From assembly GCA_027484915.1 (NCBI GenBank), contig JAIXSA010000021.1, positions 1 to 57,183 on the forward strand: a stretch of 57,183 nucleotides of DNA, in the 5' to 3' direction. The translations under genes and the position numbers were made by a program. Below the pieces are notes generated by a model. It was not told where the DNA came from. It ran no database searches and was given only the letters and a program-made list of their open reading frames with translations. Shown in pieces: positions 3,393 through 24,776 of this stretch; the stretch's first letter is position 1, and each line of letters begins with the position of its first letter. The stretch comes from Paracoccaceae bacterium (GTDB lineage: Bacteria > Pseudomonadota > Alphaproteobacteria > Rhodobacterales > Rhodobacteraceae).

Positions 3393-3401
3393 CCTGCCCC
3401 C

Positions 3402-3434: not shown

Positions 3435-3462
3435 TCCTCTTTCCGCCACCGCGAGGTTCGCC

Positions 3463-4989: not shown

Positions 4990-5917
4990 ACTGAACTGGC
5001 AGAACTACATCGTCTACATCTTCTTCGTCATCGTGCTGGGCTTCTTCGCCGTCACGATCGGCGACAAGGGGTTCCTGACGGTGACGAACCTGTTCAACAT
5101 TGCCCGCACAACGGCGATGATCACCGTGATCGCCGTGGCGATGACCTTTATCATCTCGGCGGGCGAGCTTGACCTCTCTGTCGGCTCTACCACCGCCCTG
5201 GCCGCACTGGTCTGTGCACTCGTAATGCAGTCGGGTTATCCTTGGCCCTTGGCCTTCGTCGCGGCCATTGCCTCGGGGCTGATCGTGGGCTCGCTCAACG
5301 GCTTCTTCGTGACCGTGATCGGCATCCCGTCCTTCCTGGTGACCCTCGGCATGATGCAGTTCATCCGCGGCCTCGACATGCGGATCACCTATACGAACCC
5401 GGTGTCGGTCTCGAACCAGAGCTTCAACAGCCTCTTCGGCTCGGGCAAGCTCTTCGGCGTGCCATCGCTCTTGATCTGGTCCGTCGTCATCGCGCTGGTC
5501 GGTCACATCGTCCTGAAATACACCAGCTTCGGGCGCGAGATCCTGGCCACCGGCGGCAACCGGCAAGCGGCAGAGTATTCGGGCGTCAAGACCCGCCGCG
5601 TGAAGTTCTACGGCTTCCTTCTGACGGGTGCTGCGGCGGCGCTGGCCGGGATGCTGTATACCGGCATGATGCAGACCGCCCGCTTCAACTTCGGCGAGGG
5701 CGCGGAACTTATGGCCATCGCGGCGGTGATCCTGGGCGGCACCAGTCTCTTTGGCGGAAAGGGCACGATCCTGGGCACCTTCGCGGGGTCGCTTCTGATC
5801 GGGACGATCAACAATGGCCTGATCATCATGGGCCTCGACGTCAGCGAGCAGATGATGATCGCAGGTGCCATCATCATCGTCGCCGTGGCCTTCGGGAAGA
5901 AGCCCGGCCAGGCCTGA
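4940..5917 (+). CDS. CUT2 ABC importer 1, permease (RbsC type)
   Basis: This 325-residue, strongly hydrophobic protein matches the RbsC/AraH permease family. Landmarks are ISAGELDLSVGS in the N-terminal half, NGFFVTVIGIPSFLVTLG in the middle, the cytoplasmic loop TGGNRQAAEYSGV, and ILGGTSLFGGKGTI near the C-terminus. About eight to ten membrane spans are expected. The start at 4940 lies within the ATPase gene and is preceded by GAGGAGGAG; a later ATG at 4976 is less well supported. It forms the membrane channel for the binding protein at 2223 and the ATPase at 3463. Confidence 0.93.
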   Translation: MQSKATISARPTMSLPKLNWQNYIVYIFFVIVLGFFAVTIGDKGFLTVTNLFNIARTTAMITVIAVAMTFIISAGELDLSVGSTTALAALVCALVMQSGYPWPLAFVAAIASGLIVGSLNGFFVTVIGIPSFLVTLGMMQFIRGLDMRITYTNPVSVSNQSFNSLFGSGKLFGVPSLLIWSVVIALVGHIVLKYTSFGREILATGGNRQAAEYSGVKTRRVKFYGFLLTGAAAALAGMLYTGMMQTARFNFGEGAELMAIAAVILGGTSLFGGKGTILGTFAGSLLIGTINNGLIIMGLDVSEQMMIAGAIIIVAVAFGKKPGQA

Positions 5918-6029: not shown

Positions 6030-6201
6030 TTGTTGACGTAAGGGGAGCAGGAGGGCACTCTTTCCTTGTGGGCAGGCCCGTAGGGAGTCGCCTGGGAAGG
6101 ACCGACGTTCCGGCTGCCGCACTTTGCGCGCGGACTTGGACGTCGTTTTCCCGGCGGTCGCAAGGGACGGGCCAGAGCCCCTCAACCCTTGGAGGAACAT
6201 G

Positions 6202-7158
6202 ATGGGATACGGTTTCAAGGCGGCTCTCGCCGCAACGGCATTTGCCGCAACACTTGCCGCTCCGGCAGTGCAGGCCCAAGACCAGGCGGCGCTGATCAAG
6301 CCGATCGACAGAGAACTGACATTCGTCTTCGTGCCGAAAGTCATCCATCCCTGGTATGACGTCGTCGCCCAGGGCGCGGCCTTCGCGGTCGAGGAATATG
6401 CCCAGCAGGGCATCAAGATCAACGTGGTCTGGGACCAGCCGCCGCAGGCCGACGTCGCCGATCAGAACGCGCGGATCGAGGCGAACATCGGCCGCGCGCC
6501 CGACGGCCTTGCGGTCGCCTGCCTGGACCGCGCCACCAACGTCCAGCTGATGAACGAGGCGGTGAAAGCCGGGATCAACGTCATCAATTTCAACTCGTTC
6601 TGCGACGAGGCCTTCCCCTTCATCGGCCCGAAGTCCAGCGAGCAGGACGGCTTCGACCTGGGCCAGTACCTGGCCGAACAGCTTGGCGGCAAGGGCAAGA
6701 TCGCGATCCTGTCGGGCAGCCTGACCGCCTCGGACCACGTCGAGCGCATCACCGGCTTCAAGAAGGCGCTGGAAGCCTATCCGGAGATGGAGATCGTCTT
6801 CGAGCAGCCCGATGACGACATCCTGGAAAACGCCGTCTCGCTGACCGAAAACATGCTTCAGGCCCATCCCGACATCGCCGGCATCTTCGGCTCGAACGCG
6901 TCAAACCCGATCGGGGCGGCACGTGCGGTCAAAAACGCCGGTCTCTCGGGCAAGGTGGTCATCGTCGGCATGGACGACCTGCCGGAAGCGGTGGACTTCG
7001 TCTGCGACGGCACCATCGCCGCGCTGAAGGCACAGCGACAGTGGGACATGGGCTACTGGGCCGTGAAGTACATGGTCGCGATGAACCAGAACCACACGAT
7101 CCCGATGTTCCACAACACCGGCTCGCGCTTCCTGACCAAGGCCGACTGCGTGTCCTGA
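6202..7158 (+). CDS. Periplasmic sugar/polyol-binding protein of CUT2 ABC importer 2
   Basis: The 318-residue product has a signal peptide ending near APAVQA and then the fold of ribose-type binding proteins: TFVFVPKVIHPWYDVVAQGA at the first strand, a central linker with GKIAILSGSLTASDHVERI, and IAGIFGSNASNPIGAARA. Two ATG codons are adjacent (6199 and 6202); the second is better spaced from GGAGGA. The ligand differs from that of importer 1 or is bound differently, because the two binding proteins share little obvious sequence. A hairpin follows the stop codon. Confidence 0.9.
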   Translation: MGYGFKAALAATAFAATLAAPAVQAQDQAALIKPIDRELTFVFVPKVIHPWYDVVAQGAAFAVEEYAQQGIKINVVWDQPPQADVADQNARIEANIGRAPDGLAVACLDRATNVQLMNEAVKAGINVINFNSFCDEAFPFIGPKSSEQDGFDLGQYLAEQLGGKGKIAILSGSLTASDHVERITGFKKALEAYPEMEIVFEQPDDDILENAVSLTENMLQAHPDIAGIFGSNASNPIGAARAVKNAGLSGKVVIVGMDDLPEAVDFVCDGTIAALKAQRQWDMGYWAVKYMVAMNQNHTIPMFHNTGSRFLTKADCVS

Positions 7159-7167
7159 TCCGACCCC

Positions 7168-7197
7168 GGGGGCGGCCCGACCGCCGCCCCCTCTTTT
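7168..7197 (+). terminator. Intra-operon hairpin (attenuator) after binding protein 2
   Basis: A 9-base-pair stem (GGGGGCGGC / GCCGCCCCC) with a 6-base loop is followed by TCTTTT. It sits between binding protein 2 and its ATPase, exactly where importer 1 has its own hairpin. Confidence 0.7.
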
Positions 7198-7211
7198 GCC
7201 AGAGGCCCGCC

Positions 7212-8705
7212 ATGACCCAGCCGCATCCCCTCATCGACGCCCGCCACGTGTCCAAGACCTTCGGCTCGGTGCGCGCGCTGACCGATGTCTCGATCACGCT
7301 GGCCCCGGGCGAGGTCCATTCGGTGATCGGCGAGAATGGTGCCGGGAAATCCACGCTGATGGGCATCCTGTGCGGCCGCATCCGGCCGACGCAGGGCAAG
7401 CTTCTGGTGGACGGGACCGAGGTCCACTTCCATTCGCCCCAGGACGCCCAGGCCCATGGCATCGCCATCGCGCCGCAAGAGGTGAACCTTGTTCCGCATC
7501 TGACCGTGGCCGAGAACATCCTGCTTGGCGCCCACCGTGGCCGGGCCGCACATATCGACTGGAAATCCACCCTGGCCGAGGCGACGCGGCACCTGCACGA
7601 GGTCGACGACAGTGTCGATCCGCGCGCCCGCGTCTCGCAGCTGTCCCGCGCGCAGCAGCAGCTGGTCCAGATCGCCCGCGCCGCCGCCACCCGCGCTCGG
7701 GTCATCATTTTCGACGAACCCACCGCCACTCTGACCTACCGCGAGACCGACAAGCTGATCGCCTACATCCGCCGCATGACGGCCGAGGGCCGATCCGCCT
7801 TCTACATCTCGCACCGGCTGGACGAGGTGAGGGAACTGTCGCACCGCATCACCGCCCTTCGCGACGGCGCGCTGGTTGGCTGCATCGGCCCCGAAGAGGC
7901 CACCCGCGACCGCATGGTCACGATGATGGCAGGCCGACCCACCCGCGCCCACGTCACGACTGCCCGCACCCTGACCGACCGCCCGACCGTGCTGGAGGTG
8001 CAGGGTCTGAACCGCGACCACGAGTTCCGGGATGTCTCCTTCTCTCTGCGTGAGGGCGAGATCCTGGGCATCTCGGGTCTGATCGGCTCGGGCCGGACGG
8101 AAGTGGCGAAGTGCATCTTCGGGCTGACCCGACCGCAATCGGGCCGCGTCCTCCTAGATGGCCGCGAGACGCGCTTCCGCAGCCCGCTCGATGCCATCGG
8201 GGCGGGGCTGGTCTACCTGCCAGAGGAACGCAAGGCCGAGGGCATCTTTCCCCTCCTCTCCATCGCCGAGAACACCGTGATCCCCTCGTTCGACCGCTTC
8301 ACCGGCGTCCTGCGGATGCGCAACCGGCAGATGCTGGACGAGGTCGGCCAGCTGGCCCGCCAGCTGAAGGCCAAGTTCTCGCGGCTCTCCGATCCGATCT
8401 CCAGCCTGTCGGGCGGGAACCAGCAGAAGTTCATCATCGCCCGCTGGCTGATGCGCGAGGCCCGCGTCCTGATCATGGACGAACCGACCCGCGGCATCGA
8501 CGTGAATGCCAAGCAAGAAATCCAGTCCGTCCTACGGCGGCTGACCGAGGAGCGCGGCCTGTCGGTCGTGCTGATCTCGTCCGAGATGGAAGAGCTCTTC
8601 GACGTGGCCGACCGCATCCTGGTGATGCACGAGGGCCGGGTGAAGGGCGTGAAGGACCGCGCCGAGGCCACGCAAGAGGGCCTTCTTGAACTGGCCATGA
8701 GCTGA
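7212..8705 (+). CDS. CUT2 ABC importer 2, tandem-domain ATPase
   Basis: This 497-residue protein has two ATPase domains. Domain 1 has GENGAGKS, a signature region LSRAQQQ and Walker B VIIFDEPT. Domain 2 has the degenerate P-loop GLIGSGRTE, signature LSGGNQQK and VLIMDEPT. The open frame extends upstream to 7041, but that part overlaps the binding-protein gene; the ATG at 7212 gives the normal family N-terminus (MTQPHPLIDARHVSKTFGS). It lies 53 bases after the binding protein and 12 bases before the permease. Confidence 0.93.
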   Translation: MTQPHPLIDARHVSKTFGSVRALTDVSITLAPGEVHSVIGENGAGKSTLMGILCGRIRPTQGKLLVDGTEVHFHSPQDAQAHGIAIAPQEVNLVPHLTVAENILLGAHRGRAAHIDWKSTLAEATRHLHEVDDSVDPRARVSQLSRAQQQLVQIARAAATRARVIIFDEPTATLTYRETDKLIAYIRRMTAEGRSAFYISHRLDEVRELSHRITALRDGALVGCIGPEEATRDRMVTMMAGRPTRAHVTTARTLTDRPTVLEVQGLNRDHEFRDVSFSLREGEILGISGLIGSGRTEVAKCIFGLTRPQSGRVLLDGRETRFRSPLDAIGAGLVYLPEERKAEGIFPLLSIAENTVIPSFDRFTGVLRMRNRQMLDEVGQLARQLKAKFSRLSDPISSLSGGNQQKFIIARWLMREARVLIMDEPTRGIDVNAKQEIQSVLRRLTEERGLSVVLISSEMEELFDVADRILVMHEGRVKGVKDRAEATQEGLLELAMS

Positions 8706-8717
8706 GGAGCGAAGGCA

Positions 8718-9716
8718 ATGATGCAGGATACAGATTTCAACTCTGCCACCCCGGTGCAACGCGACGGGGGCGCCCGCGCGCTTCTCCTCCGCTTCTTCCG
8801 GTGGGAGGCCAGCGGCATCCTGATCGCGCTGGCGATTCTTTTCGCGGCGCTGGCAATCGCGACCGACAACTTCCTGTCGGCCTACAACATGTCGGTCGTG
8901 GCGCGTCAGGCGGCCTTCGTCGGGCTTGTCGCCCTGGGCCAGACGCTGGTTCTTCTGGTGGGCGGCATCGACCTTTCGGTGGGCGCCTGCGCGGGGCTTT
9001 CGGCCATCGTGGGCTCTATCGCGCTGACGCAGTGGGGGTTGCACCCGTTCCTGATCATCCCCTTCACGATGGGCTTCGGCTTCGCGCTTGGCGCGCTGAA
9101 CGGTGCCCTGGTCGCGGGCCTTCGGCTCAATCCTTTCATCGTCACCCTTGCGACCTGGGAGATTTTCGCCGGAATGACGCTGGTTATAACCCAAGGCTAT
9201 CCGATCCGTCCGCTGGGTGAGCCCTTCACGTGGTTCGGCCAAGGCGATGTGTTTGGCGTGCCCTTGCCGGTTGCCATCTTCGCGGTCGTGTCGCTGGTCC
9301 TCGTTTGGACGCTGGCGCAGACGCGCTTCGGGCGGAACATTTTTGCCGTCGGCGGCAACCGGGATGCCGCGGTCCTGGCGGGCATCCGCGTGAAGCGGGT
9401 GGAGTTCCTGGCCTATGGTCTGGCCGGGATGCTGTCCGCGCTGGCGGGGATCCTTTACGCCAGCCGGATGGATGCCGGGCAGCCTTCGGTCGGCGAGGGC
9501 TGGCTTATGGGCGCGATCACTGCAGCCATTCTTGGTGGGACCAGCCTGCGGGGCGGACAAGGCTCCGTCGTCGGCACGGTGCTGGGTGCGCTTCTGTTGG
9601 CGGTGCTGGCGAATGGAACGGTGCTGATGAACGTCTCGGGCTTCTGGCAGCGGGTAATCGTGGGCGGCGTCGTGCTGGTAGCGGTGCTGGTGGACCTGCT
9701 GCGCCGACGGGATTGA
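8718..9716 (+). CDS. CUT2 ABC importer 2, permease
   Basis: This 332-residue polytopic membrane protein is of the RbsC family. Visible marks are LVGGIDLSVGACAGLSA, GLRLNPFIVTLATWEIFAG, the loop AVGGNRDAAVLAGI and ILGGTSLRGGQGSV. The gene begins 12 bases after the ATPase stop, preceded by GAGGAGCGAAGG. It completes a second full importer in the locus. Two parallel importers in one cluster suggest two related ligands (for example a free polyol and a conjugate), or high- and low-affinity uptake of one ligand; the sequence does not decide. Confidence 0.92.
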   Translation: MMQDTDFNSATPVQRDGGARALLLRFFRWEASGILIALAILFAALAIATDNFLSAYNMSVVARQAAFVGLVALGQTLVLLVGGIDLSVGACAGLSAIVGSIALTQWGLHPFLIIPFTMGFGFALGALNGALVAGLRLNPFIVTLATWEIFAGMTLVITQGYPIRPLGEPFTWFGQGDVFGVPLPVAIFAVVSLVLVWTLAQTRFGRNIFAVGGNRDAAVLAGIRVKRVEFLAYGLAGMLSALAGILYASRMDAGQPSVGEGWLMGAITAAILGGTSLRGGQGSVVGTVLGALLLAVLANGTVLMNVSGFWQRVIVGGVVLVAVLVDLLRRRD

Positions 9717-11125: not shown

Positions 11126-12463
11126 TCAGCCCCGGATGTGGCGTCCGATCAGGGCAGCGACCGTCTCCGGGTCCTCGATATGCGGCACATGGCCCACACT
11201 GCGTAACAGGTGCAGCGCGACCTCTCCCGGGGCGGCCAGTGCCTGCCGCCAGGGCAGGATATGGTCGTCGCGGCCCCAGATCATCAGGGTCGGCATCGCG
11301 ATCCGCGACAGGGCCGCCGTCAGGTCGAAGGCCTGCACCCCGTCGGGGAACAGCACCGCCGCCAGCTCCTGCTGCGCCTCGCGCAAGGCCGGGTCCAACC
11401 GGGCCAGCATCGCCGCCTTGGCGAAGTCGTGGCTGATCCCGTCGGGCCGCGCCGTCAGCCGTTTAAGCCACGGCGCCAGGCTGTCCACGCTGCCTGCCCG
11501 CGCGATGCCATTCAACGCCGCCCCGTCGATCTCGGGTCCCAGGCCTGCCGGGGCGATCAGCGACAGCGTCTTGACCTGACGCGGACGGATGTCGGCCAGC
11601 GCCAATGCAAGCCCTCCGCCCAGCGAATGGCCCAAGAGGTGCACCGGCCCCTCGGCCACCCGGTCAAAGACCTGCACCAGTTGCTTGGCAAGGTCCGCAA
11701 ACCCATCAACGCGCCGCAAGGGAGACCGTCCGTGCGAGGGCAGGTCGATCCGGATCAGCGCCTGGTCTTTCGGCAGGGCCTCTTCCAAAGGACGCCAGCC
11801 ATAGCTGTCGGCGGCGAATCCGTGGATCAATACCAGCGGCACTCCGCTGCCCTTCCGCGTCGTCACGTTCAGGTCGCCCGGCTGCGCCTCCCATGTGATC
11901 GGGGCCGCAGGAGCCACCACCGCGACCGGCTTCGGAACCTCCACCACGGGCCGCGCCAGTTCCACCACCGGGCCAGGCTTCGCCCGCGCCACGGCCGCTT
12001 CGACATCAGCCCGCTGGATGCGCCCGCGAGGGCCAGTCCCGGTAATCGACGCAAGCTCCAGCCCCCCCTCGCGCGCCAGACGACGCGCCACCGGGGTTGC
12101 TCTCAGATCGGCACTGTCGGGCCCGATGACCTGCGCTGCCACCACCGGAGGCACAGCCACGGCGGCGGGCTTTTCCTCGACTGCAGTGACCGGGGCCGCG
12201 GCGGGAGACTGTCCCACCGCCTCGCCCTCGGCATAGATGAAAGCCACTGGGCGACCCACGTCCACTGTCTCACCCGGTGCGGCAAGGATATGATGCAGCC
12301 GGCCCGTTGCCGGGGCCTCCACCTCCATCGCCGCCTTGTCGGTCTCGATGTCGAAAAGGGCTGCCCCCTTCTTCACCGTCTCGCCCTCGGCCACATGCCA
12401 AACCGCCAGCTTGCCGCTGGCCATGTCCATGTCGACCTTCGGCATGATGACTTCCGTGGGCAT
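11126..12463 (-). CDS. acoC-like: Lipoyl E2 subunit with alpha/beta-hydrolase domain (AcoC-like)
   Basis: This 445-residue protein has three parts: a lipoyl domain (residues 1-80, with the lipoylated Lys43 in ETDKAAMEV), a peripheral-subunit-binding domain (about 121-157, ATPVARRLA and GTGPRGRIQ) and an alpha/beta-hydrolase domain (about 205-443, Ser280 in GHSLGG, His in [11 protein letters not shown]). The usual acyltransferase core with HxxxD is absent. This arrangement is known from the E2 (AcoC) of acetoin dehydrogenase complexes. In the complex, the lipoyl arm accepts the two-carbon acyl unit from E1 and passes it to CoA. The start at 12463 follows the E1 beta stop by one base; the upstream in-frame region belongs to the other gene. 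No E3 (dihydrolipoamide dehydrogenase) is in the window, so it must be shared from elsewhere. Confidence 0.9.
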
Positions 12464-12464
12464 C

Positions 12465-13481
12465 CTACACCTCGCCCTTCGCCAGCTGACGTGCGACGCG
12501 TTCGATGTCCGGCGACTGCGGCACGGCGGCGCGTTCCAGGTCGGGGTTGTAGGGGATCGGAGCCTCGGCCCCGCCCAGGCGCTGGATCGGCGCGTCGAGG
12601 TAGTCAAAGGCCTCGCTTTCCGCGACCAGTGCGCTGATCTCGGCGCCGACGCCCAGGGTCTTGACCCCCTCGTAAACGCAAAGAAGCTTGCCCGTCTTCT
12701 TCACCGACGCGATGATCGTCTCGCGGTCGAGGGGTCGCACAGTGCGCAGGTCGATGACTTCGGCCTCGATCCCCTCTTTCGCCAGCCTCAAAGCGGCCTC
12801 CAGCGCGCGATGCACCATGATGGCGCTGGCGACGATGGTCACATGTTGACCCGGCCGCACCACGGCCGCCTTGCCGATGGGGGTGATGTAATGCCCCGCC
12901 GGAACCGGCCCCTTCATCTTGTACAGAAGCTTGTGCTCAAAGACGATTACCGGGTCCGGGTCCGCCAATGCCGCCAGCAGAAGCCCCTTCGCCTCGGCGG
13001 GGGTCGAGGGTTGCACGACCTTCAGCCCCGGTACATGGCCGAACCAGGCCTCGAAGGACTGCGAATGCTGAGCCGCCGCGCCGGTGCCCGAACCGGAGGG
13101 CATGCGGAACACCACCGGCACCTCAGCCTCGCCGCCCAGCATGTAGCGGAGTTTCGCGGCCTGGTTGACGATCTGCTCCATAGCCAGCGCGGCGAAGTCG
13201 GAGAACTGGAATTCGAAAATCGGCTTCAGCCCCGTCAGCGCGGCCCCCACGGCCACCCCGGCTCCACCAAGTTCCGAGATCGGGGTGTCCATCACCCGCT
13301 CCGGCCCAAAGCGGTCGATCAGGTCGCCGGTGACCTGGAAAGCCCCGCCGTAGGTCCCGATATCCTCGCCCATGAGGACCACTGCCGGATCGCTTTCCAG
13401 CGCGATGGCCATCGCCTCGCGGATCGCCTCGGCATAGCTCAGCTCGCGGACCTCCGCGTCGATCTGGACCTGGGCGTTCAT
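12465..13481 (-). CDS. acoB-like: TPP-dependent dehydrogenase E1 beta subunit (AcoB-like)
   Basis: The 338-residue product matches the E1 beta subunit of 2-oxo-acid/acetoin dehydrogenases, both in length and in landmarks: [19 protein letters not shown] and [12 protein letters not shown] at the N-terminus, [21 protein letters not shown], and the C-terminal [14 protein letters not shown]. The start codon overlaps the E1 alpha stop (ATGA), and the E2 gene begins one base after the stop, so the subunits are translated in tight coupling. With E1 alpha it would form the heterotetramer that decarboxylates an oxo-acid or cleaves an acyloin. The acyloin option is favoured by the AcoC-type E2. Confidence 0.92.
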
Positions 13482-14488
13482 GCTGCCACCTCGGCGTGGA
13501 CAAATTTCGTGACTTCGGTCACGGCGGGAGTGGGGCTTTGCCGAGCGAACTCGATCCCTGCAGCCACGGCGTCCTTGGCCTCGACCTCGACCGCATCCGC
13601 CTCGGCCTCGCCCAACACGCCATGCGCGATCAGTTCGGCGCGGAAGCGAGCGATCGGGTCGCGGGTCATCCACTCTTCGATCTCGTCCTTGGTGCGATAG
13701 CGGTTGCGGTCCGACTTGGAATGGCCCCGCCAGCGGTAGGTGAGGTTCTCGACCAGGCTCGGCCCCTCGCCCGCCCGCGCCCGGGCGATGGCCTCGTGCA
13801 GCGCCTCGGCCACGGCGGAGAAGTCGTTGCCGTCGACCGTGACACCCGGCATCGAATAGGCGACCGCGCGGTCGGCGATGTTCGGAACCGCCGTCGCATA
13901 GGCCGCCGCGGTCGACATGCCGTACTTGTTGTTCTCGCAGACGAAGATCACCGGCAGCTTCCAGATCGCAGCCATGTTCAAGGCCTCGTGGAAGGCCCCC
14001 TCGTTGTTGGCCCCGTCGCCGAAGAAGCAGACCGTCACGTCATCGCGCCCCAGCCGCTTGGCCGTAAGCGCCGCGCCGACCGCGATGGGCAGCCCCCCGC
14101 CGACAATCCCGTTCGCCCCAAGGTTCCCGGTCTTTACGTCCGCGATATGCATCGATCCGCCGCGCCCGTGGCAATAGCCGGTCTCCTTGCCGAAGAACTC
14201 GGCAAACATCCGGCCGACGTCGGCGCCCTTGGCGATGCAGTGCCCATGGCCGCGGTGGGTCGAGGTGATCTTGTCGGCGTCCGTCAGCTCCATGCAGGTG
14301 GCAACGGCACTCGCCTCTTGTCCGATGGACAGGTGCATGGTCCCGTGGATCAGGCCGCGCATGTAGCTTTCCTCGGCCCCCTCCTCGAAAAGCCGGATCA
14401 GGTGCATCTTCCGCAGCGCCTCGCGCAGCTGCGCGGGTGAAAACTGGCTGATCGCGAAGGGGATGTTTTCCGTCGTGTCGCGCATCAT
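13478..14488 (-). CDS. acoA-like: TPP-dependent dehydrogenase E1 alpha subunit (AcoA-like)
   Basis: This 336-residue protein carries the thiamine-diphosphate/Mg binding motif running from GDG (157-159) to NN (186-187), with the phosphorylation-loop region [10 protein letters not shown] near residue 260. [19 protein letters not shown] and [10 protein letters not shown] are family marks. Pyruvate, branched-chain and acetoin dehydrogenases share these features. The neighbouring AcoC-type E2 and the DXR-like enzyme upstream argue for cleavage of an acyloin such as 1-deoxyxylulose 5-phosphate. The gene overlaps the DRL gene upstream and E1 beta downstream by ATGA at both ends. Confidence 0.92.
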
Positions 14489-15813
14489 GCCACCTCCAGC
14501 CCCAGCACCAGCGCATCCTGCTTGGCGCGGAGTGCGGCGATCCGGCTGCCTTCGGCCGGCTTGGCGTTGGCCCAGGTGATGAGTTCCCCCTTGCGGATCG
14601 GAGCCGTCACCTTGCCGCCCGCCAGCAAGCCGCAGGGGATCGCCTTGTCGGCCCGCGCGACGGCGGCTTCCAGGATCCAGGCGCGGTAGCAGTACTCGCC
14701 TATCTGGTCGAGCTTCTCACCCACGGCCATGTCCTTCTTCGCGACGGCGCAGACCTCGGCCACGGGCTTCGCCAGCGGCACCATGTCGGGCTTGCCATAG
14801 AGCACCACGCGCGCGCAGGTCAGCGGCACTTCAAGGCTGGTCAGGTGATAGGGCCGGTGGAAGGTGAAGTAGGGGCCCTTGCCCATCTTCAGGTCCTCCA
14901 TCCGCTCCCAGATGCGGGGATGGTCCATTTCGGCCACCACGAAGACGCCCGGCGCCACGCCCTTGCCGATGGAGTAGTCGACCACTCCCACCCGGTTCAG
15001 GACACCACCGTCGGCCTTCGGCACCAGCACCTTGTTCAACTGGTCCAGCGTGGCCGCAGGCCCGTGCATCCCCGCCACATCGGGCACCAGGCCCGTGGCG
15101 TTGGCGATGGCGGCCATTTCCACCATCGTCTTCGACCCGTCGACGAATTCCACCAGCATCCGCACATTCATATGGCGCCGCGCGGCCTCCTCCTCATAGG
15201 CCGGCGGGGTGGCGTCGATGTTCAGGGGATTGTTCTTCCCCTTGCCCGCCGCCACGATGCGATGGCCCATGGCGCTTACGAACTCGATCAGCTCCATGCA
15301 GGAGGACGGCTCGTCCCCCGCGCCAAGGGAATAGGTGACGCCCAGCCGGTCCGCCTCGGACTTCAGGTAGGCACCGATGGTCACGTCGGCCTCGACGTTC
15401 ATCATCACAAGGTGCTTGCCGTGCTCCATCGCGCGAAGGCCGATTTCGGCCCCCACTGCAGGAACGCCAGTTGCGTCCACGACCACGTCGATCAGCCCTG
15501 AGTTCAGGATGGCATTCGCATCCGATGTAATCGCAATCTTCCCCGCCTCGATGGCCGCGTTCACGCCGTCCGTGCCGCTGGCTTCCCGCGCATGGCCCTT
15601 CTCGCGGAAGGCGATGTCCACCGCCTTGGTCGCCGCTGCCGGGTTCAGTTCGGAAATCGCGCCGATTTCGATCCCCTCCATATGCGCCACGCGGGCCACG
15701 ATGTCGGTGCCCATCTCGCCCGAGCCGATAAGGCCGATGCGGATGGGACGGCCGGTCTCGGCGCGGGCGCGCAGATCGCGTGCGAGGCCGGTAGGGGCGA
15801 CGTTGATCGGCAT
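14485..15813 (-). CDS. drl-like: DXR-like (DRL) SAF-domain NAD(P) oxidoreductase
   Basis: This 442-residue protein has an N-terminal Rossmann fold (GLIGSGEMG at 27-35) of homoserine-dehydrogenase type, a central region with SLGAGDEPSSCMELIEF and AAGKGKNNPLNIDA, and a C-terminal SAF domain (about residues 345-420, ending AIPCGLLAGGKVTAPIRKGE). Such proteins are often misnamed flagellar FlgA because of the SAF domain. From memory, this layout and length match DRL of Brucella abortus, which makes 2-C-methylerythritol 4-phosphate from 1-deoxyxylulose 5-phosphate; many DRL carriers also have normal DXR, so other roles exist. Start 15813 has AGGAGG six bases upstream. It is the first gene of the operon with E1 alpha, E1 beta and E2. 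Assignment to DRL rather than another member of this oxidoreductase family rests on recalled resemblance only. Confidence 0.75.
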   Translation of the reverse strand: MPINVAPTGLARDLRARAETGRPIRIGLIGSGEMGTDIVARVAHMEGIEIGAISELNPAAATKAVDIAFREKGHAREASGTDGVNAAIEAGKIAITSDANAILNSGLIDVVVDATGVPAVGAEIGLRAMEHGKHLVMMNVEADVTIGAYLKSEADRLGVTYSLGAGDEPSSCMELIEFVSAMGHRIVAAGKGKNNPLNIDATPPAYEEEAARRHMNVRMLVEFVDGSKTMVEMAAIANATGLVPDVAGMHGPAATLDQLNKVLVPKADGGVLNRVGVVDYSIGKGVAPGVFVVAEMDHPRIWERMEDLKMGKGPYFTFHRPYHLTSLEVPLTCARVVLYGKPDMVPLAKPVAEVCAVAKKDMAVGEKLDQIGEYCYRAWILEAAVARADKAIPCGLLAGGKVTAPIRKGELITWANAKPAEGSRIAALRAKQDALVLGLEVA

Positions 15814-15885
15814 GGTGGTCCTCCTCTGGATCGGTGTGCCGGGAGGGCGACTCAGCTGGTCGCGGGTCCTGGCTGGTATGGGTCC

Positions 15886-15922
15886 ATCTATGCCCTCGAT
15901 TGATCTTTTGTCAATTACAAAA
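15886..15922 (-). promoter_or_regulatory. Promoter/operator of the DRL-E1-E2 operon
   Basis: On the minus strand a -35 box TTGACA (15914-15909) is followed after 17 bases by ATAGAT (15891-15886), a plausible -10. The inverted repeat TTTTGT-CAATT-ACAAAA at 15906-15922 covers the -35 box. Its arms are identical to those upstream of ABC operon 2. A further perfect inverted repeat, CACTTC-GGATGT-GAAGTG, lies just upstream at 15933-15950. Binding at the first site would repress the operon; a sugar-phosphate-responsive SorC regulator is the natural candidate. Confidence 0.65.
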
Positions 15923-15952
15923 TCTAAATGTTCACTTCGGATGTGAAGTGCG

Positions 15953-15982
15953 AAAACCGGAAAGCCCCGCACAGGGCGGGGC
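15953..15982 (-). terminator. Terminator after the SorC regulator operon
   Basis: Read on the minus strand, GCCCCGC pairs with GCGGGGC around a 5-base loop, followed by a T-rich tail (TTTCCGGTTTT). It lies 24 bases after the regulator stop codon and upstream of the DRL promoter, separating the two minus-strand operons. Confidence 0.75.
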
Positions 15983-16006
15983 CGGCACGGGCAAAATAGG
16001 ATGCAT

Positions 16007-16975
16007 TCAGGTCAGCAGCGCAGAGGCCGTGGCCTCGTCCGTGATCAGGACCGTGGGCCGGATCAGAGCCATCGCGCCGCGCAGCGCCGCCACCTTGGCA
16101 GCACCGCCCGAGGCAAGGATGCGCTCAGATGCCCGGCACAGGGTTGCGATGGGTGCGCTCATGATGCGGTCGTTGATCGGATGGGCGACCAGGCGCCCCT
16201 TTGCGTCGAAGAAATTGTAAAGGACGTTGCCCACCGCCCCCGCCGCGGCAAGCTCGGCCAAGGTCTCCGGCGGCAACGGGTTCAGCCGCCCTTCCGGAGC
16301 GTCGACCTGCAGGCCACCGACCGACAGAAGCACCGCGTCCAGCGCCTCGGTCATCGCCAGCGTCTCGCCGACCCCACAGCGCTCGATCAGCCGACGGCGG
16401 GTGTCAGCGTCGTCGACGATGGCCGGGGCCGCCACCAGGTAGCAGCGCGCCTTCCACAGCCGGGCGAAAGCCCAGGCGAATTCGGCGGGGTTGTAGTGCT
16501 CGACCGCCGAGACCCCGCCCAGAAGCGAAACCACCGTATCCGCCTGCCCGCCGCCCACGAAGTCGAGCGAGCTGTAGAGCGTCCGCCCCCAGCCCACCCC
16601 GATCCGCGTTTCCGGTTGCAGGAATCCTGACAGATAGGCCCCCGTCGCGGCCCCAATGGCGACCGTCGGGTCGGCGTCCAGAGAGGAAAGCGGGGTGACG
16701 ATGGCCTCGCGCAGGCCGAACCGGCGTTCAAGGCCGATCTCCAGCCGCGGCAGATCCGAGATTTCGCGAGACAGCGTGATCGCCACCTCGTGCAGCGCCC
16801 GGGCATCGGCCAAGAGGCGCGTCACCGTCACCCGCCCGATTCCCAGCTTCTCGGCAATCGCGCCCTGGGTCATGTCCTCGGCATAATACATCCAGGCTAC
16901 CCGCAGCCGCAGGCGTGACGAACGACGACGCGCGACATCGGCCTCAGCCCCCAAGCCCTGGCCCGGCGCGTTCAT
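16007..16975 (-). CDS. SorC/DeoR-type sugar-responsive regulator 1 (EryD-like)
   Basis: This 322-residue regulator has an N-terminal helix-turn-helix (about residues 24-60, AEDMTQGAIAEKLGIGRVTVTRLL) and a large C-terminal sugar-phosphate-binding domain (GVGWGRTLYSSLDF, VVSLLGGVSA, ASGGAAKVAALRGAM), as in the SorC family that includes EryD of erythritol catabolism. Its start overlaps the flavoprotein stop by ATGA, so it is cotranscribed with the two dehydrogenases it probably controls. A likely effector is a phosphorylated pathway intermediate. Candidate operators are the TTTTGT-N5-ACAAAA sites and the TTTGCACA repeats; which regulator binds which cannot be told. Confidence 0.88.
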   Translation of the reverse strand: MNAPGQGLGAEADVARRRSSRLRLRVAWMYYAEDMTQGAIAEKLGIGRVTVTRLLADARALHEVAITLSREISDLPRLEIGLERRFGLREAIVTPLSSLDADPTVAIGAATGAYLSGFLQPETRIGVGWGRTLYSSLDFVGGGQADTVVSLLGGVSAVEHYNPAEFAWAFARLWKARCYLVAAPAIVDDADTRRRLIERCGVGETLAMTEALDAVLLSVGGLQVDAPEGRLNPLPPETLAELAAAGAVGNVLYNFFDAKGRLVAHPINDRIMSAPIATLCRASERILASGGAAKVAALRGAMALIRPTVLITDEATASALLT

Positions 16976-18552
16976 GCGCTTGCGCGTTCGGGACGCGCCT
17001 CCAGAAGGGCCGCGATCTCGCCCCGCACGGCGGGACGGTCACAGCCGGTCAGCGCCAGAAGCGTGCGCCGGTAGAGGATGTCGTCGACGCCGCCAACTCG
17101 TTCGGTCGCGGCGATATGCCGGATCTCCTCACGCGCATAACCCGGCGCGCTTGACAGCATCGTCTCCCCCCGTTCGCGCAGCGTCGCCACGTAGGTCTCT
17201 GCCCGCGTGCCATAACGCTGCAGCAGGACCTCTGCCCGCGCCTCGCTGATCCCGCCCCGTCGGGCAAGCCCGGCAATGTACACCCTCCAGACCGCTGGCT
17301 TGGGGAAGTCCTTTCCGCCGCCGATGGCCAGGCCCGCAGTCGAGACGGTCCGCGCCCGCCCCAGCCCAGCCAGCACGCGGTCCGCCGCCAGTTCCGAAAA
17401 GGCCCGGAAGGTCGTCCACTTGCCTCCGATCAGGCAATGCACCGGCACCTCGGTTCCCGGCAAGGCCAGCGTCACGATGGAATGGTCCCGCGTCACCGCG
17501 CCCACGTCTCCCCCGGCACGCGGCAGGGGCCGGACGCCGCAGAAGCGGTGCACGATCTGGCTGGTCAGCACCGGAATATCCGGGAAGACCTCGGCCACCG
17601 CCGCGCAAAGATAGGCCTCCTCGTCCTCGCTGCAGCGCGCCGTATCCGGGTCGTCCTGTGCAAGGTCCGTGGCGCCCACCAGCACTTTGCCCTGGAATGG
17701 ATACAGCAGGTTCACCCGCCCGTCCGGCGTCCCGAAATAGACCATCCGACCATCCAGCGCGCGCAGCAGCGTCGGGTTGTCCACGATCAAATGCGACCCC
17801 CGGCTTCCACCCATCAACCGGCTCTGGATCCCCAGCCGCGCGTTCACCGCGTCGATCCAGGCCCCACCAGCGTTGATCACGACCTTTGCCCTCGCCTCGG
17901 CCACCTCGCCTGAGGCGCGCCGCCAGCGCAGGACACCGGCGTCGCAGCCCAAGAGTTCCAGATGAGTCTCGACGCGCGCCCCGGGGTTCGCTGCCTCGCC
18001 GTCCAGCACCAACTCCAGCCCCAGCCGCTCAGCATGGGTGATGTGGCCTTCGTAATAGACGCCTGCCCCGGTGATCCCCGCCGCAACGTCGGGCATCATC
18101 CGCTGCAGGGCACCCCGCCGCAGCATCCGCGACGCCGGCATCGACCGCAGTGCCCGCCCATAAAGATCGTAAAGCCGCAGGCCCAGCGCCGTGATCAAGA
18201 ACCCCCGGTCGTTCAACCGGGCCTTTACCCCCAGGAACCGCAGCACCGAGCCTACGACGCCCCCCCAGGTCGACCGCACCGGAACCACACATTCCAAGGG
18301 CTGCACATAATGCGGCGCGGTCGCCAGCAGCATGTTGCGCTCGGTCAGCGACTCTTTCACTAGCCGGAATTCGCCCATCTCAAGGTACTTCAGCCCGCCA
18401 TGCATCAGGCGCGACGACGCCGCCGAGGCCCCCTGGCAGATGTCCCCCCGCTCCAGCATCAGGACGCGGACCCCCTGCAAGGCGAGATCGCGGAAGGTGC
18501 CGCAGCCGTTGATCCCGGCGCCCAAAATCATGACTTCGACCTCTTCAGGCAT
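16972..18552 (-). CDS. FAD-dependent glycerol-3-phosphate dehydrogenase-like enzyme (GlpD/EryB family)
   Basis: This 526-residue flavoprotein has the N-terminal FAD motif GAGINGCG and the GlpD signature SSRLMHGGLKYLE. VRPLPRAGG and a conserved VHCLIGGKWTTFRAFSE appear in the C-terminal half, which also has the small helical domain of GlpD (RYGTRAETYV, ERVGGVDDILYRRT). It would oxidise a polyol phosphate at the membrane and pass electrons to quinone. In Brucella, the relative EryB acts on erythritol phosphate, which fits the EryD-like regulator next door. A plain glycerol-3-phosphate dehydrogenase is possible, but the setting favours a longer or branched polyol phosphate. It overlaps the alcohol dehydrogenase gene upstream by 8 bases and the regulator downstream by 4. 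Confidence 0.88.
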   Translation of the reverse strand: MPEEVEVMILGAGINGCGTFRDLALQGVRVLMLERGDICQGASAASSRLMHGGLKYLEMGEFRLVKESLTERNMLLATAPHYVQPLECVVPVRSTWGGVVGSVLRFLGVKARLNDRGFLITALGLRLYDLYGRALRSMPASRMLRRGALQRMMPDVAAGITGAGVYYEGHITHAERLGLELVLDGEAANPGARVETHLELLGCDAGVLRWRRASGEVAEARAKVVINAGGAWIDAVNARLGIQSRLMGGSRGSHLIVDNPTLLRALDGRMVYFGTPDGRVNLLYPFQGKVLVGATDLAQDDPDTARCSEDEEAYLCAAVAEVFPDIPVLTSQIVHRFCGVRPLPRAGGDVGAVTRDHSIVTLALPGTEVPVHCLIGGKWTTFRAFSELAADRVLAGLGRARTVSTAGLAIGGGKDFPKPAVWRVYIAGLARRGGISEARAEVLLQRYGTRAETYVATLRERGETMLSSAPGYAREEIRHIAATERVGGVDDILYRRTLLALTGCDRPAVRGEIAALLEARPERASA

Positions 18553-19582
18553 CTGCGATCGCCACCTTCATCGCCGCCCCACTCTCCGCCATCGAGAATG
18601 CGGCATCGACTTCGGCAAGGCCATAGCGATGCGTGATCATGTCACGCACTTCGATCCGCCCGTCGGCAATCATGTGCAGCGCATCCTCGTAATCCTTGCG
18701 CGACAGGCCGAAGGCACCGGTCAGGCGCAGCTCTTCATAATGGATCGCGTTGACGTCCAGATTGCCCGTCTCGCCCTTTGAAAATCCTGCGAACAGGCTG
18801 ACCCGTCCGCCCTTGGCGGCCAGACCGACGGCCTGCGACGCCAGCGCCGGGATGCCGATGGCGCAGATCACCACGTCAGCCCCCAGTCCCCGGGTCTCGG
18901 CCCGCACCGCCTGGCGCAGGTCACCGGCGTTGGGGTCGATCACCACATCCGCACCCGCCGCAAGCGCCGCCTCGCGCCGCCCGGCATTGGGCTCGGACAC
19001 GATCACCCGCGAAGCGCCGCGCAGTCGCGCCAGCTTCACATGCAGCGTCCCGATCGGCCCCGCGCCCAGGATCACGACCGAATCCCCCAGCCTCAGCCCG
19101 ACCTTGTTCTGTCCATTCAGGACACAGGCAAGGGGCTCGACCAGCGCGGCCTCCTCGTGGCTGACGCGCTCCGGCAGCAGATGGACGTTCCCCAGTTCCA
19201 CCGCGCGGGCGGGAATGCGGATGAACTCGGCAAAGGCCCCGTCGATCTCGTAGCCGATTGCCTGCAGGTCCGGGCACAGGTTCTCGCGCCCCCGCTGGCA
19301 CTGCGGGCAGTGACCGCAGGGAATCGCCGGGCACACACCGACGCGCTGGCCAGGCCGGAAGGGCGACGGTCCGTGGGTCGAGACCACCTCGCCCGAGAAT
19401 TCGTGCCCGATGATCGATGGATAGCGGATGCCCGTCGTCTTCCGCCCGCGATAGACGCGAATGTCGGTTCCACAGATGGTGGCGGCCCTGACGCGCAGCA
19501 GCAGGTCTCCGGCCTCGGTCACGGGATCGGCCGCAACATCCAGTTGCATCCGGTTCGGGGCATGGAGAATTGCAGCCTTCAC
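18545..19582 (-). CDS. Zinc-dependent medium-chain polyol/alcohol dehydrogenase
   Basis: This is a 345-residue enzyme of the sorbitol/threonine dehydrogenase group. Catalytic zinc ligands are Cys37 (ATICGTD) and His60-Glu61 (IIGHEF). The structural zinc site reads PCGHCPQCQRGRENLC, and the cofactor fold has ILGAGPIGTLH. I start it at a GTG (19582), because GGGAGG lies just upstream and the product then begins VKAAILHAPN, the normal family N-terminus; the longer ATG frame would run through the operator repeats. It would oxidise a secondary alcohol of a polyol with NAD(P). It is the first gene of the operon with the GlpD-like enzyme and regulator 1. Confidence 0.9.
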   Translation of the reverse strand: MKAAILHAPNRMQLDVAADPVTEAGDLLLRVRAATICGTDIRVYRGRKTTGIRYPSIIGHEFSGEVVSTHGPSPFRPGQRVGVCPAIPCGHCPQCQRGRENLCPDLQAIGYEIDGAFAEFIRIPARAVELGNVHLLPERVSHEEAALVEPLACVLNGQNKVGLRLGDSVVILGAGPIGTLHVKLARLRGASRVIVSEPNAGRREAALAAGADVVIDPNAGDLRQAVRAETRGLGADVVICAIGIPALASQAVGLAAKGGRVSLFAGFSKGETGNLDVNAIHYEELRLTGAFGLSRKDYEDALHMIADGRIEVRDMITHRYGLAEVDAAFSMAESGAAMKVAIADA

Positions 19583-19600
19583 GTCGGCCTCCCATATGTC

Positions 19601-19617
19601 TTTGCACAATTTGCACA
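19601..19617 (-). promoter_or_regulatory. Tandem TTTGCACA repeats before the alcohol dehydrogenase operon
   Basis: Two copies of TTTGCACA (19601-19608 and 19610-19617) stand 9 bases apart, 18 to 35 bases upstream of the GTG start. Sites this close to a start codon commonly act as operators. GCACAA is shared with the palindrome upstream of the hydrolase gene (1147-1159). A separate hairpin-forming inverted repeat, CACCGA-TCT-TCGGTG, lies at 19638-19652. Confidence 0.5.
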
Positions 19618-19752
19618 TAATTTTTACTTTTGCGCAACACCGATCTTCGGTGATTGCCTGCGGTCCGCTCTCCACCGTTCCGTGCGCGCGGCTTCTGTCC
19701 TAAGGCTGGCGGAAATGGGGGCATCTGCCGCACTTAGGCACGCACAATCATG

Positions 19753-19781
19753 TTGACACTATCGCAAATGTTCATCATTCT
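19753..19781 (+). promoter_or_regulatory. Candidate promoter of the PfkB kinase gene
   Basis: TTGACA (19753-19758) and CATTCT (19776-19781) are separated by 17 bases. The start codon is 24 bases further on, so the leader would be very short. The spacer region contains GCAAATGT, loosely like the TGTGCAAA repeats on the other side of this divergent intergenic region. Confidence 0.45.
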
Positions 19782-19805
19782 GACGGCAGCTAGGGGGAAG
19801 ATGCC

Positions 19806-20753
19806 ATGCGCTACGATTACGTCTCGGTCGGGTTCTACACCTTCGACTGCCTGGGCTGGCCGATCTCCGAAGTCCCGGCGGGCGGTGGCACATCCTTCAT
19901 CCAGGACATCACGATGGCTGTCTCGGGTGCTGCCGGAACAGCCGCCATCGTCGGCGCGAAGCTTGGCCTGAGGACCCTGGCGGTCGGCGGGTACGGCCGC
20001 GACATGATGGGTGACTGGGCCGTGTCGCGGCTGGAAAGCTTCGGCATCGACACCTCCGGCCTGCAGCGGCTTGAGGGCGTTCCAACCTCCTCCTCCATCG
20101 TGCTGACCCGCAAGGACGGCTCGCGCCCCGCGCTGCACGTCAAGGGTGCGACCGGGCATTTCCTTGTTCCGGAAAGCGATTTCGACCGCATCACCGACAC
20201 CCGCGTCTTCCACCTGGGCGGCGTCGGGCTTATGGATGCAATGGATGGTGCGCCGAATGCTTCGATGATGGCCCGTGCCAAGGCGCGGGGCTGCATCACC
20301 ACGGTCGACATCTTCGCCGGCTCGCCTGACGACCTGCCCGACGTGGACGCGGTCCTGCCTTACACCGACTACTTCATCCCCTCGGTCGAGGAAGCCCAGG
20401 CGCTGACCGGGTTAAGCGATCTTGACGACATGGCCACCTTCTTCATGAACCGTGGCGCGGGCGCCTGCATCTTCACCCTCGGCGGCGATGGTGCCTATTA
20501 CCGCGATCGCACTGGCCTGACCTTCCGCATCCCCGCCTTCGCAATCGACGTGGTCTGCACCTGCGGCTGCGGCGACGTGTTCAACGCTGGCTTCGCCACC
20601 GGGCTTCTCAACGGCATGTCACCCCAGGACTCGGTCCGCCTCGCCCAGGCCTCCTCGGCGCTGAACGCCACGGGACTTGGCAGTCAGGCGGGCGTTGTCT
20701 CGCTTCCCGACACGCTGGCCTTCATGAAAACCTGTTCAATGAAGGCCGCATGA
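19806..20753 (+). CDS. PfkB-family sugar/polyol kinase
   Basis: This 315-residue protein follows the ribokinase/PfkB pattern. It has GGGTSFIQD and an AGTAAIVGAKLGLRT glycine-rich region near the N-terminus, and FTLGGDGAYY before the C-terminal motif. The catalytic signature reads CTCGCGDVFNAGF, where most family members have DTTGAGD(A/S)F; the catalytic Asp is kept, but Cys replaces Ala in the anion hole and the leading Asp is missing. It would phosphorylate the imported or dehydrogenated sugar in the cytoplasm. It is divergent from the alcohol dehydrogenase operon and lies 85 bases upstream of regulator 2, probably in one transcript with it. Confidence 0.88.
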   Translation: MRYDYVSVGFYTFDCLGWPISEVPAGGGTSFIQDITMAVSGAAGTAAIVGAKLGLRTLAVGGYGRDMMGDWAVSRLESFGIDTSGLQRLEGVPTSSSIVLTRKDGSRPALHVKGATGHFLVPESDFDRITDTRVFHLGGVGLMDAMDGAPNASMMARAKARGCITTVDIFAGSPDDLPDVDAVLPYTDYFIPSVEEAQALTGLSDLDDMATFFMNRGAGACIFTLGGDGAYYRDRTGLTFRIPAFAIDVVCTCGCGDVFNAGFATGLLNGMSPQDSVRLAQASSALNATGLGSQAGVVSLPDTLAFMKTCSMKAA

Positions 20754-20838: not shown

Positions 20839-21786
20839 TTGACGACGGCAGACGTGAACGACGACCTGAAAACCCGGATCGCCTGGCTCTACTATGTCGA
20901 GGGCATGACTCAGGACGAGGTTGCCAATCTTGTGGGCATGAACCGCTCGCGCGTGCTGCGCATTCTCGCCTCCGCCCGGCAGGACGGCACGGTGCAGATC
21001 CGCGTCACCACCCGGATGTCGCGCTGCGTCGAACTTGAACGCGAGCTGGAAAGCCGTTGGAGCTTGACGCGCGCCATCGTCGTCCCCGAGCCGCAGGACC
21101 CCAACCGCCTGCGCGAGATCATCGGGGCCGAAGTCGGCGCCTATATGTCCCAGGCCGTCACACCGAACATGACCGTAGGCCTCGGCTGGGGTAAGACCCT
21201 GACCTCGGGCGTTCCGGCCATCGAACCCCGCGCGTCCGAGGGCGTGAAGATCCTCTCCATGCTAGGCGGCCTGACCCGGGTCAGCTCTATCAACCCGTCC
21301 GAATTCGCCTGGCGCGTCGCAGACCGCCTTTCGGCGGAATGCTACATGATGGCCTCCCCCGTCTATGCGCCCGACGCCCGCACGCGCGAGTCGCTGATGA
21401 ATCACCCCGGCATCGCCGAGGTCTTCAACCGGGCGCAGTCCCTGGACATGGCCGTGCTGTCGGTGGGCGACCTGACGCCGCACTCCGTCTTCTCGGAATA
21501 TGGCCTGCTGACCCGCGACGAGATCGCCTCGCTGGAAGCCGCAGGCGCTGTGGGCGACATCCTCTGCCACTTCATCGACGCCGATGGCAATGTCATCGAC
21601 CACCAGGTGAACAAGCGGGTCGTGGCGGTCGACCCGCTGTCCCTTCGCGGCACCCGGCAGATCGTTCTTGCCTCGGGCGGTTGGCACAAGCTGACGGTGA
21701 TCCGCGCCGCACTGAAACTGCTGCGCCCGACGGTGCTGGTCGTCAACGAACTGGTTGCCGAGCGGCTGGCGATCGAAAGTCGCTAG
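20839..21786 (+). CDS. SorC/DeoR-type sugar-responsive regulator 2
   Basis: This 315-residue regulator is related to regulator 1: helix-turn-helix EGMTQDEVANLVGMNRSRVL near residues 25-45, and the effector domain GLGWGKTLTSGVP, LSMLGGLTRVSS, LASGGWHKLTVIRAAL. The start is a TTG preceded by GGGAG, with a GTG at 20854 as alternative. It follows the kinase gene on the same strand. Two members of one family in a single locus suggest two effectors or two layers of control, for example one for uptake and one for breakdown. Confidence 0.87.
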   Translation: MTTADVNDDLKTRIAWLYYVEGMTQDEVANLVGMNRSRVLRILASARQDGTVQIRVTTRMSRCVELERELESRWSLTRAIVVPEPQDPNRLREIIGAEVGAYMSQAVTPNMTVGLGWGKTLTSGVPAIEPRASEGVKILSMLGGLTRVSSINPSEFAWRVADRLSAECYMMASPVYAPDARTRESLMNHPGIAEVFNRAQSLDMAVLSVGDLTPHSVFSEYGLLTRDEIASLEAAGAVGDILCHFIDADGNVIDHQVNKRVVAVDPLSLRGTRQIVLASGGWHKLTVIRAALKLLRPTVLVVNELVAERLAIESR

Positions 21787-23905: not shown

Positions 23906-23932
23906 GGGTCGTTTCCTTTGGGTTGAGGGGGG

Positions 23933-24772: not shown

Positions 24773-24776
24773 GGGT

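Follow-up and report, generated by a model that had tools for sequence, protein, structure and literature searches.

The second type of 1-deoxy-D-xylulose 5-phosphate (DXP) reductoisomerase, DXR-II or DRL, was reportedly described in a 2010 PNAS paper. Here we analysed a stretch of 57,183 nucleotides from a Paracoccaceae bacterium (GCA_027484915.1, contig JAIXSA010000021.1; henceforth the window) in which a DXR-II gene shares an operon with genes for the E1alpha, E1beta and E2 components of a thiamine pyrophosphate (TPP)-dependent complex, and we consider it probable that this operon serves the catabolism of 2-C-methyl-D-erythritol and possibly also of 1-deoxyxylulose. The DXR-II of the alternative 2-C-methyl-D-erythritol 4-phosphate (MEP) pathway of Brucella (structures 3UPL and 3UPY) belongs to the same family as the window protein and has the same substrate-binding residues; the window's genome, however, also has a dxr gene, its DXR-II lies in an apparently sugar-catabolic operon with E1/E2, and the proposed direction is the opposite one. 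The acetoin dehydrogenase complex AcoABC has in common with the window the AcoC-type E2, the E1alpha signature, the E1beta group and, as proposed, carbon-carbon cleavage beside a methyl ketone, but the window set is linked to DXR-II and a kinase (in other loci to a phosphotransferase system, PTS), has no recognised acetoin-pathway neighbours, and would act on DXP. Pyruvate dehydrogenase (PDH) and branched-chain 2-oxoacid dehydrogenase (BCKDH) share fold and TPP plus lipoyl chemistry with the window E1/E2, and E1 complexes have solved homologues; the linked E1beta proteins nevertheless group separately from the further E1s that their genomes encode, and the window E1alpha scores under the NCBIfam PDH cut-offs. 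The Ery operons for erythritol catabolism combine, like the window, a polyol kinase with a GlpD/EryB-like flavoprotein, whereas the window adds DXR-II and E1/E2. We know of no described pathway with a DXP dehydrogenase (acetyl-transferring) reaction, and among the open-access matches listed, titles and abstract openings held no description of methylerythritol catabolism, DXP cleavage by E1/E2, or DXR-II beside E1.

The proposed route would lead from methylerythritol, a branched polyol that isoprenoid metabolism most likely leaves behind, through MEP and DXP to acetyl-CoA and glyceraldehyde 3-phosphate. The PfkB kinase would make the polyol phosphate, which in PTS loci would be imported directly; DXR-II would run backwards, from MEP to DXP; and E1/E2, together with a housekeeping E3, would cleave the CH3-CO-CHOH head of DXP, with E1 forming hydroxyethyl-TPP and freeing glyceraldehyde 3-phosphate, and E2 handing the acetyl group to CoA. 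The net yield would be acetyl-CoA, glyceraldehyde 3-phosphate and two reduced nicotinamides, and the SorC regulators would sense a sugar phosphate. Gene content, family membership, residues, linkage, co-occurrence and dxr presence are the basis from which direction, substrate, E1 specificity and regulation are inferred. A catabolic role for the window DXR-II appears well supported by several comparative lines, and methylerythritol as the substrate, with DXP cleavage by E1/E2, is our best inference.

The DXR-II protein and its E1/E2 partner

When searched with phmmer against the PDB sequences, the window DXR-II matched only 3UPY, which is the Brucella DRL (PMC3847144), and 3UPL, with E of about 1e-206 (for 3UPY about 5e-207). 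The Pfam model DRL_cat (PF21135) gave 230 bits against a cut-off of 27, and no SAF domain was called at E<=0.001. In the DXR-II tree, which was built without four duplicates (L038-L041), the protein sits with alphaproteobacterial (rhizobial) DXR-II sequences, with 98-99% support in the approximate likelihood-ratio test (aLRT) and 52-93% identity to them. It also retains the residues to which a 2013 family study (PMC3847144), whose numbering is used here, assigns substrate and fosmidomycin binding (K191, K193, T229) and dimer contact (E174, F178, R320, Y322), and the place in the DRL clade that an earlier, sequence-only reading of the window had proposed for the oxidoreductase is thus borne out. 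K191 and K193 are found in 101 of the 101 rows of our alignment and T229 in 98 of 101. The free quick tree did not draw the 97 DXR-II rows as one clade, but a tree that unites them scores 4 log units better (p-AU 0.57, approximately unbiased test); the window protein stands apart from 20 further rows, which were called DLO paralogues by their 33-40% identity. According to the same study (PMC3847144), Sinorhizobium fredii NGR234, whose copy is 80% identical to the window protein, is listed as a DXR-II carrier; eleven DXR-II sequences of the clade make MEP in Escherichia coli, where DXR-II can replace DXR; and active DXR-II occurs in Chloroflexus, which has the mevalonate pathway only, and in Finegoldia, which has neither pathway. 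The main text of that paper contains no word starting with "catabol"; the pattern found here is linkage to E1/E2 and to polyol uptake.

The window E2 passes the NCBIfam model for acetoin dehydrogenase E2 (NF011457, 347.5 vs 307), and the E1 passes the general E1beta subfamily model NF006667 (398 vs 321), while the E1alpha stays under both PDH E1alpha equivalog cut-offs (374.7 vs 393.85 bits for TIGR03182 and 268.4 vs 411.35 for TIGR03181). Once E1 and DXR-II matches covering <80% of the window protein, as well as eight E1beta loci that duplicate genes in longer loci (L122-L129), had been dropped, the E1beta tree placed 48 of the 49 DXR-II-linked rows in one group of 53 (support 95/93). The other members of this group are four acetoin-type rows, two of which adjoin acetoin reductase or butanediol dehydrogenase genes, and one row from a Clostridioides difficile plasmid; the E1s outside it would be PDH, BCKDH and similar enzymes. 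The genome of the window has a second E1beta (at C35), which falls outside the acetoin/linked group. In E1alpha, H78, G80, H83 and N126 are found in 53-54 of 54 linked proteins, in 4-5 of five acetoin-like ones (including L179, which has an FGGY kinase and whose E1beta is outside the acetoin group) and in 2-4 of 18 other E1s. Position 258 is basic in all 54 linked proteins (51 K, 2 R, 1 H), but only in one of the five acetoin-like and one of the 18 other E1s, and K258, N122 and S259 are features seen typically just in the linked E1s. K258 comes right after a serine aligned with the one that we take to be phosphorylation site 1 of human PDH, at the mouth of the active site, and it may hold the 5-phosphate.

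These results match the acyloin-type E1 of the earlier reading. The possibility that E1/E2 is simply the genome's PDH was rejected on the sub-cut-off PDH scores, the separate second E1, the E1beta grouping and the E1alpha residues. In PMC3424233, E. coli PDH E1 mutants are reported to make DXP in vivo, and purified PDH to make deoxyxylulose from pyruvate and glyceraldehyde; by analogy, this would concern the same bond as the proposed cleavage, formed rather than broken.

The AcoC-type E2 and the grouping with acetoin-type E1s could also mean that two functions merely adjoin, DXR-II and the kinase salvaging methylerythritol or deoxyxylulose into the MEP pathway and E1/E2 being an acetoin dehydrogenase, and loci with DXR-II and PTS but no E1 do exist. 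We find this improbable. Salvage of methylerythritol requires no DXR, the DXR-II and E1alpha genes overlap, their linkage is kept over phyla, and some carriers have no ispG that we could find; moreover, no acetoin reductase or butanediol dehydrogenase gene was recognised by eye in window 1-27000, in contrast to loci L180 and L181.

Distribution of dxr and of E1 linkage in the family

The check for dxr in the window's genome, which the earlier reading had called for, revealed a canonical copy (PF02670, 118.5 bits, at C40) and an ispG (at C80), and DXR-II is hence not its sole DXR. Within the window's family, 24 of 394 sampled genomes carry DXR-II (E<=1e-110), and 18 of these 24 carry dxr, two of the matches (G746, G751) being fragments. 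E1alpha and E1beta lie beside DXR-II in all 18 genomes with dxr, the window included, but in none of the six without it (Fisher p 7e-6, kinship ignored), and of the other 17 E1-linked loci, 13 have a PfkB-type kinase within the stretch. Because all six dxr-less genomes keep ispG, they probably have the remaining MEP pathway too, and in them DXR-II must be the reductoisomerase. As the dxr-less rows occupy at least three well-supported separate places in the DXR-II tree, repeated recruitment of a catabolic enzyme as a replacement for DXR would be the simplest story for these genomes.

The same six genomes, which seem to use DXR-II as their only DXR, together with the reported ability of DXR-II to replace DXR in E. 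coli (PMC3847144), would fit a different explanation, namely that the window DXR-II is a spare biosynthetic DXR, kept for gene dosage or fosmidomycin tolerance, and that E1/E2 is a PDH-like complex accessory to isoprenoid or central metabolism. There is, in our opinion, very little to recommend it: in the family, the genomes with E1 beside DXR-II are precisely those that have dxr, the E1 is not PDH-like, SorC regulators, importers and kinases surround DXR-II, and other genomes, described below, carry DXR-II with neither dxr nor ispG found, mostly with a sugar PTS in the locus. The dxr/E1 split and these last carriers led us to reject redundant DXR activity for biosynthesis as the role of the operon.

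Recurrence in other phyla and on plasmids

We scanned 84,980 species genomes using a DXR-II alignment headed by the Priestia protein and obtained 79 loci, which come from the 80 of 556 relatives most like the Priestia DXR-II; many of them are short, and 46 have at least 19 kb. Genes in these loci, as in the loci of the family and the Gat-PTS stretches described below, were called by the best BLAST match (>=60 bits) to the window and to annotated plasmid proteins, and only families in that set are visible. DXR-II with E1/E2 was found to recur in Bacillota, Chloroflexota and Actinomycetota, for the most part accompanied by a PTS of the glucitol type. Among the 46 longer loci, 28 have E1alpha and E1beta (38 of 79 overall), 37 the glucitol PTS IIB/IIC (50 of 79) and 35 a SorC regulator (48 of 79), as against none of 20 paralogue loci for any of the three. 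Since a PTS delivers the polyol already phosphorylated, DXR-II in these loci would meet a polyol phosphate, and in the sets described next the one thing that follows DXR-II is an E1 complex that transfers acyl groups. Thermovorax (L063) has a near-minimal operon made of SorC, PTS IIC/IIB/IIA, DXR-II, E1alpha, E1beta, E2 and E3, and Planococcus (L048, L050) has the same gene set plus GutM, with SorC last; these near-minimal operons hold no extra dehydrogenase. The conversion of MEP to DXP and then to acetyl-CoA and glyceraldehyde 3-phosphate would close the PTS-DXR-II-E1 set with no step missing, whereas an ordinary ketose phosphate would instead give glycolyl-CoA and so require further enzymes.

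The PTS of the DXR-II loci is of the same family as the E. coli glucitol PTS (srlAEBD), with a median identity to SrlA/SrlE of about 49%. No close SrlD was found: the 13 matches in the set reach 35% at best, in the locus of a paralogue, and the best one within a DXR-II locus has 33%. The reading of this system as a sorbitol PTS is weakened by that result. The Listeria operon has previously been interpreted as one for sorbitol (PMC11176438).

The dxr lookup covered 43 of the 79 loci, which correspond to 42 genomes (36 loci were left out), and dxr was found in 31 of the 42. Neither dxr nor ispG was found in six of them, the completeness of the assemblies not being told: Virgibacillus subterraneus, Lentibacillus halodurans and four Enterococcus. 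In such genomes DXR-II can hardly serve the MEP pathway; five of the six have the glucitol PTS in the DXR-II locus, and V. subterraneus and L. halodurans hold the full PTS-DXR-II-E1-E2-E3 set. Along with the PTS linkage and the dxr/E1 split, these carriers argue for the catabolic reading first proposed from the sequence. In Thermovorax, Fervidicola, Anaerosalibacter, Hakubella and Peptoniphilus ispG is present and dxr was not found, with two DXR-II copies in each of the first three and one in each of the last two. In 16 genomes, chosen mainly for a DXR-II locus without E1beta, we searched for this gene elsewhere, and 13 have an E1beta at least 63% identical to that of Priestia. Two of these cases are trivial, as a contig end truncates the Ectobacillus gene and that of Fervidicola adjoins its other DXR-II (L065); elsewhere the distance to DXR-II is 14-20 kb in Domibacillus and Lysinibacillus, 30-42 kb in two Enterococcus and 240 kb in Bacillus altitudinis.

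Several points weigh against the pathway as proposed. The equilibrium of DXR favours MEP, and the step must therefore be pulled, as the irreversible last step would do. The 20 control paralogue loci (33-40% identical) are alphaproteobacterial, whereas the 46 longer loci are mostly from Bacillota and were ranked by Priestia likeness; likewise, the completeness of the 42 genomes in the dxr lookup is not told. The tree-based test of the split in the family has three independent pairs only, and although all agree, the sign test gives p 0.25. Thermovorax, Fervidicola, Anaerosalibacter and Hakubella, in which dxr was not found, have E1 linked to DXR-II all the same, and a clean split as seen in the family is thus not universal. 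The E1alpha and E1beta pair is missing from 41 of the 79 loci, a good part of which are short, and among the 16 searched genomes no close E1beta was found anywhere in Listeria farberi, Massiliimalia and Peptoniphilus. The linked E1betas form no exclusive clade, at least three changes being forced, and neither the GlpD-like protein nor the zinc dehydrogenase of the window has a settled role. Finally, E1-E2-E3 sets of the linked type accompany a Gat-type PTS and a zinc dehydrogenase in five of nine stretches examined, including the one in B. altitudinis that lies 240 kb from DXR-II, and given this company the E1 may have further substrates besides DXP.

The last of these points raises the possibility, unlikely in our view but not to be neglected, that the same logic serves another substrate: a branched or deoxy polyol such as 2-C-methylthreitol, a 1-deoxypentitol or a 6-deoxyhexitol would be turned by DXR-II and dehydrogenases into a 1-deoxyketose phosphate, and this into acetyl-CoA and an aldose phosphate. 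Short-chain dehydrogenase/reductase genes are in fact found in all four Gat-PTS stretches whose unassigned open reading frames were scanned, a linked-type E1 occurs on C. difficile plasmids with no DXR-II in the stretch examined, L042 has an FGGY kinase whose best matches are models of ribulo- and xylulokinase (under their cut-offs), and the two unexplained window enzymes would find a place in such a scheme. The conserved fosmidomycin-binding residues and the eleven sequences reported to make MEP (PMC3847144) point to MEP and DXP instead, as do the near-minimal operons. The Gat-PTS sets suggest that this deoxyketose phosphate, or one much like it, can also be reached by a second entry route, and the zinc dehydrogenase, GlpD-like protein and kinase of the window may form such a route.

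On plasmids, 32 of the 38 records that carry DXR-II at 51% identity or more show E1beta on that strand too, no further than 2.5 kb away; the six exceptions are five Phyllobacterium and one Pararhizobium. E1-E2-E3 sets are found in Shinella, Sinorhizobium meliloti Rm41 (with lipA) and Rhizobium sophoriradicis, the Rm41 homologue of DXR-II being at NC_018682 41886-43211, and a glucitol PTS with its own ptsP is near DXR-II-E1-E2 in two Alphaproteobacteria, directly in Pseudoroseomonas and within 16 kb in Aminobacter. The E2 is AcoC-type or classical in the same DXR-II/E1 setting, and therefore the chemistry of the acyl acceptor, not the type of E2, seems to be the kept trait.

Taken together, we lean towards the view that DXR-II is primarily catabolic and works with a DXP dehydrogenase (acetyl-transferring) to degrade methylerythritol, the biosynthetic DXR-II of dxr-less lineages having been recruited several times. 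If so, these bacteria would acquire carbon by a new pathway in which the first committed step of isoprenoid synthesis runs in reverse. Such a pathway would occur in at least Pseudomonadota, Bacillota, Chloroflexota and Actinomycetota, and it would warn against calling DXR-II genes isoprenoid genes or Srl-type PTS operons sorbitol operons. The partnership of DXR-II and E1 across distant bacteria may also explain why a second type of DXR exists at all. Plants contain methylerythritol, and isoprene in air gives rise to 2-methyltetrols; the substrate pool may hence be large.

Some further observations were made in these loci. The lipA gene lies inside or near the DXR-II-E1-E2-E3 cluster in L033 (24247-25215) and L042 (14642-15604), as if an extra lipoyl complex needed its own supply. 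DXR-II stands beside fructose-6-phosphate aldolase genes in L037, L107, L064, L068 and L072, with transketolase too in L037 and L107, perhaps as another means of splitting DXP. In L083, L091, L100, L110 and L116 (Aerophobetes, Bacillota and Calditrichales) it is found with a weakly matching FGGY kinase and a zinc dehydrogenase, with no E1 in the locus. On the C. difficile plasmid NZ_CP149721 (15793-36776, L178), a Gat-type PTS accompanies linked-group E1/E2/E3, as does a class II aldolase, with no DXR-II in the stretch, and linked-group E1beta is present in 12 C. difficile plasmid records. Rhizobial E1-E2 (AcoC) sets without an adjoining DXR-II, L179 and L182 (34026-36990), have an ABC importer and FGGY kinase, or a Gfo/Idh oxidoreductase and isomerase; sugar catabolism may thus commonly involve E1 complexes that transfer acyl groups. 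A scan of viral contigs found nothing.

Gene layout of the window

The features of the locus are listed below. On the minus strand the order is zinc dehydrogenase, GlpD-like protein, SorC, a gap of about 190 bases, DXR-II, E1alpha, E1beta and E2; DXR-II and E1alpha, as well as E1alpha and E1beta, overlap by 4 bases, and E2 begins one base past the E1beta stop, so that the single overlapping operon described in the earlier reading is confirmed. The PfkB kinase and the second SorC regulator are oriented opposite to this run. The kinase, zinc polyol dehydrogenase, flavoprotein and importers named in that reading are all present beside DXR-II, with SorC regulators in addition; the span given for the locus, 14485..20753, does hold DXR-II, SorC, the GlpD-like protein, the zinc dehydrogenase and PfkB, but it leaves out E1beta, E2 and almost the whole of E1alpha.

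Features of the DXR-II locus in the window (positions of the whole stretch)
Feature	Position	Strand	Remarks
Ribose-type ABC importer 1	2223..5917	+	binding protein 2223-3392, ATPase 3463-4989, permease 4940-5917
Ribose-type ABC importer 2	6199..9716	+	binding protein 6199-7158, ATPase 7212-8705 (both starts picked by eye), permease 8718-9716
AcoC-type E2	11126..12463	-	lipoyl, E3-binding and alpha/beta hydrolase domains
E1beta	12465..13481	-	groups with DXR-II-linked E1s of other phyla and acetoin-type E1s
TPP-dependent E1alpha, acyloin-cleaving type	13478..14488	-	H78, G80, H83, N126 signature; K258
DXR-II (DRL) oxidoreductase	14485..15813	-	ATG at 15813; proposed MEP to DXP
SorC-type sugar-binding transcriptional regulator	16007..16975	-	upstream of DXR-II
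GlpD/EryB-like FAD oxidoreductase	16972..18552	-	under NCBIfam glpD cut-offs; perhaps side branch
Zinc-dependent polyol dehydrogenase	18545..19675	-	exact start uncertain; perhaps side branch
PfkB sugar kinase	19806..20753	+	proposed maker of polyol phosphate
Second SorC-type regulator	20839..21786	+	

No lpdA (E3) was recognised by eye among the open reading frames of window 1-27000. Genome G647, of the same family, has a DXR-II 93% identical to that of the window in near-identical gene order (locus L220), with one ABC importer instead of two; as this order is kept and the pairing of DXR-II with E1 recurs widely, the arrangement is not a chance one. Ribose-type ABC importers lie near the same genes in other loci as well: L032 has two, L033 and L220 one each. 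Further along the window, positions 22164-26789 appear, by eye from the translations, to hold a separate module resembling a sulfonate- or nitrate-type ABC import system with a flavin monooxygenase and a reductase.

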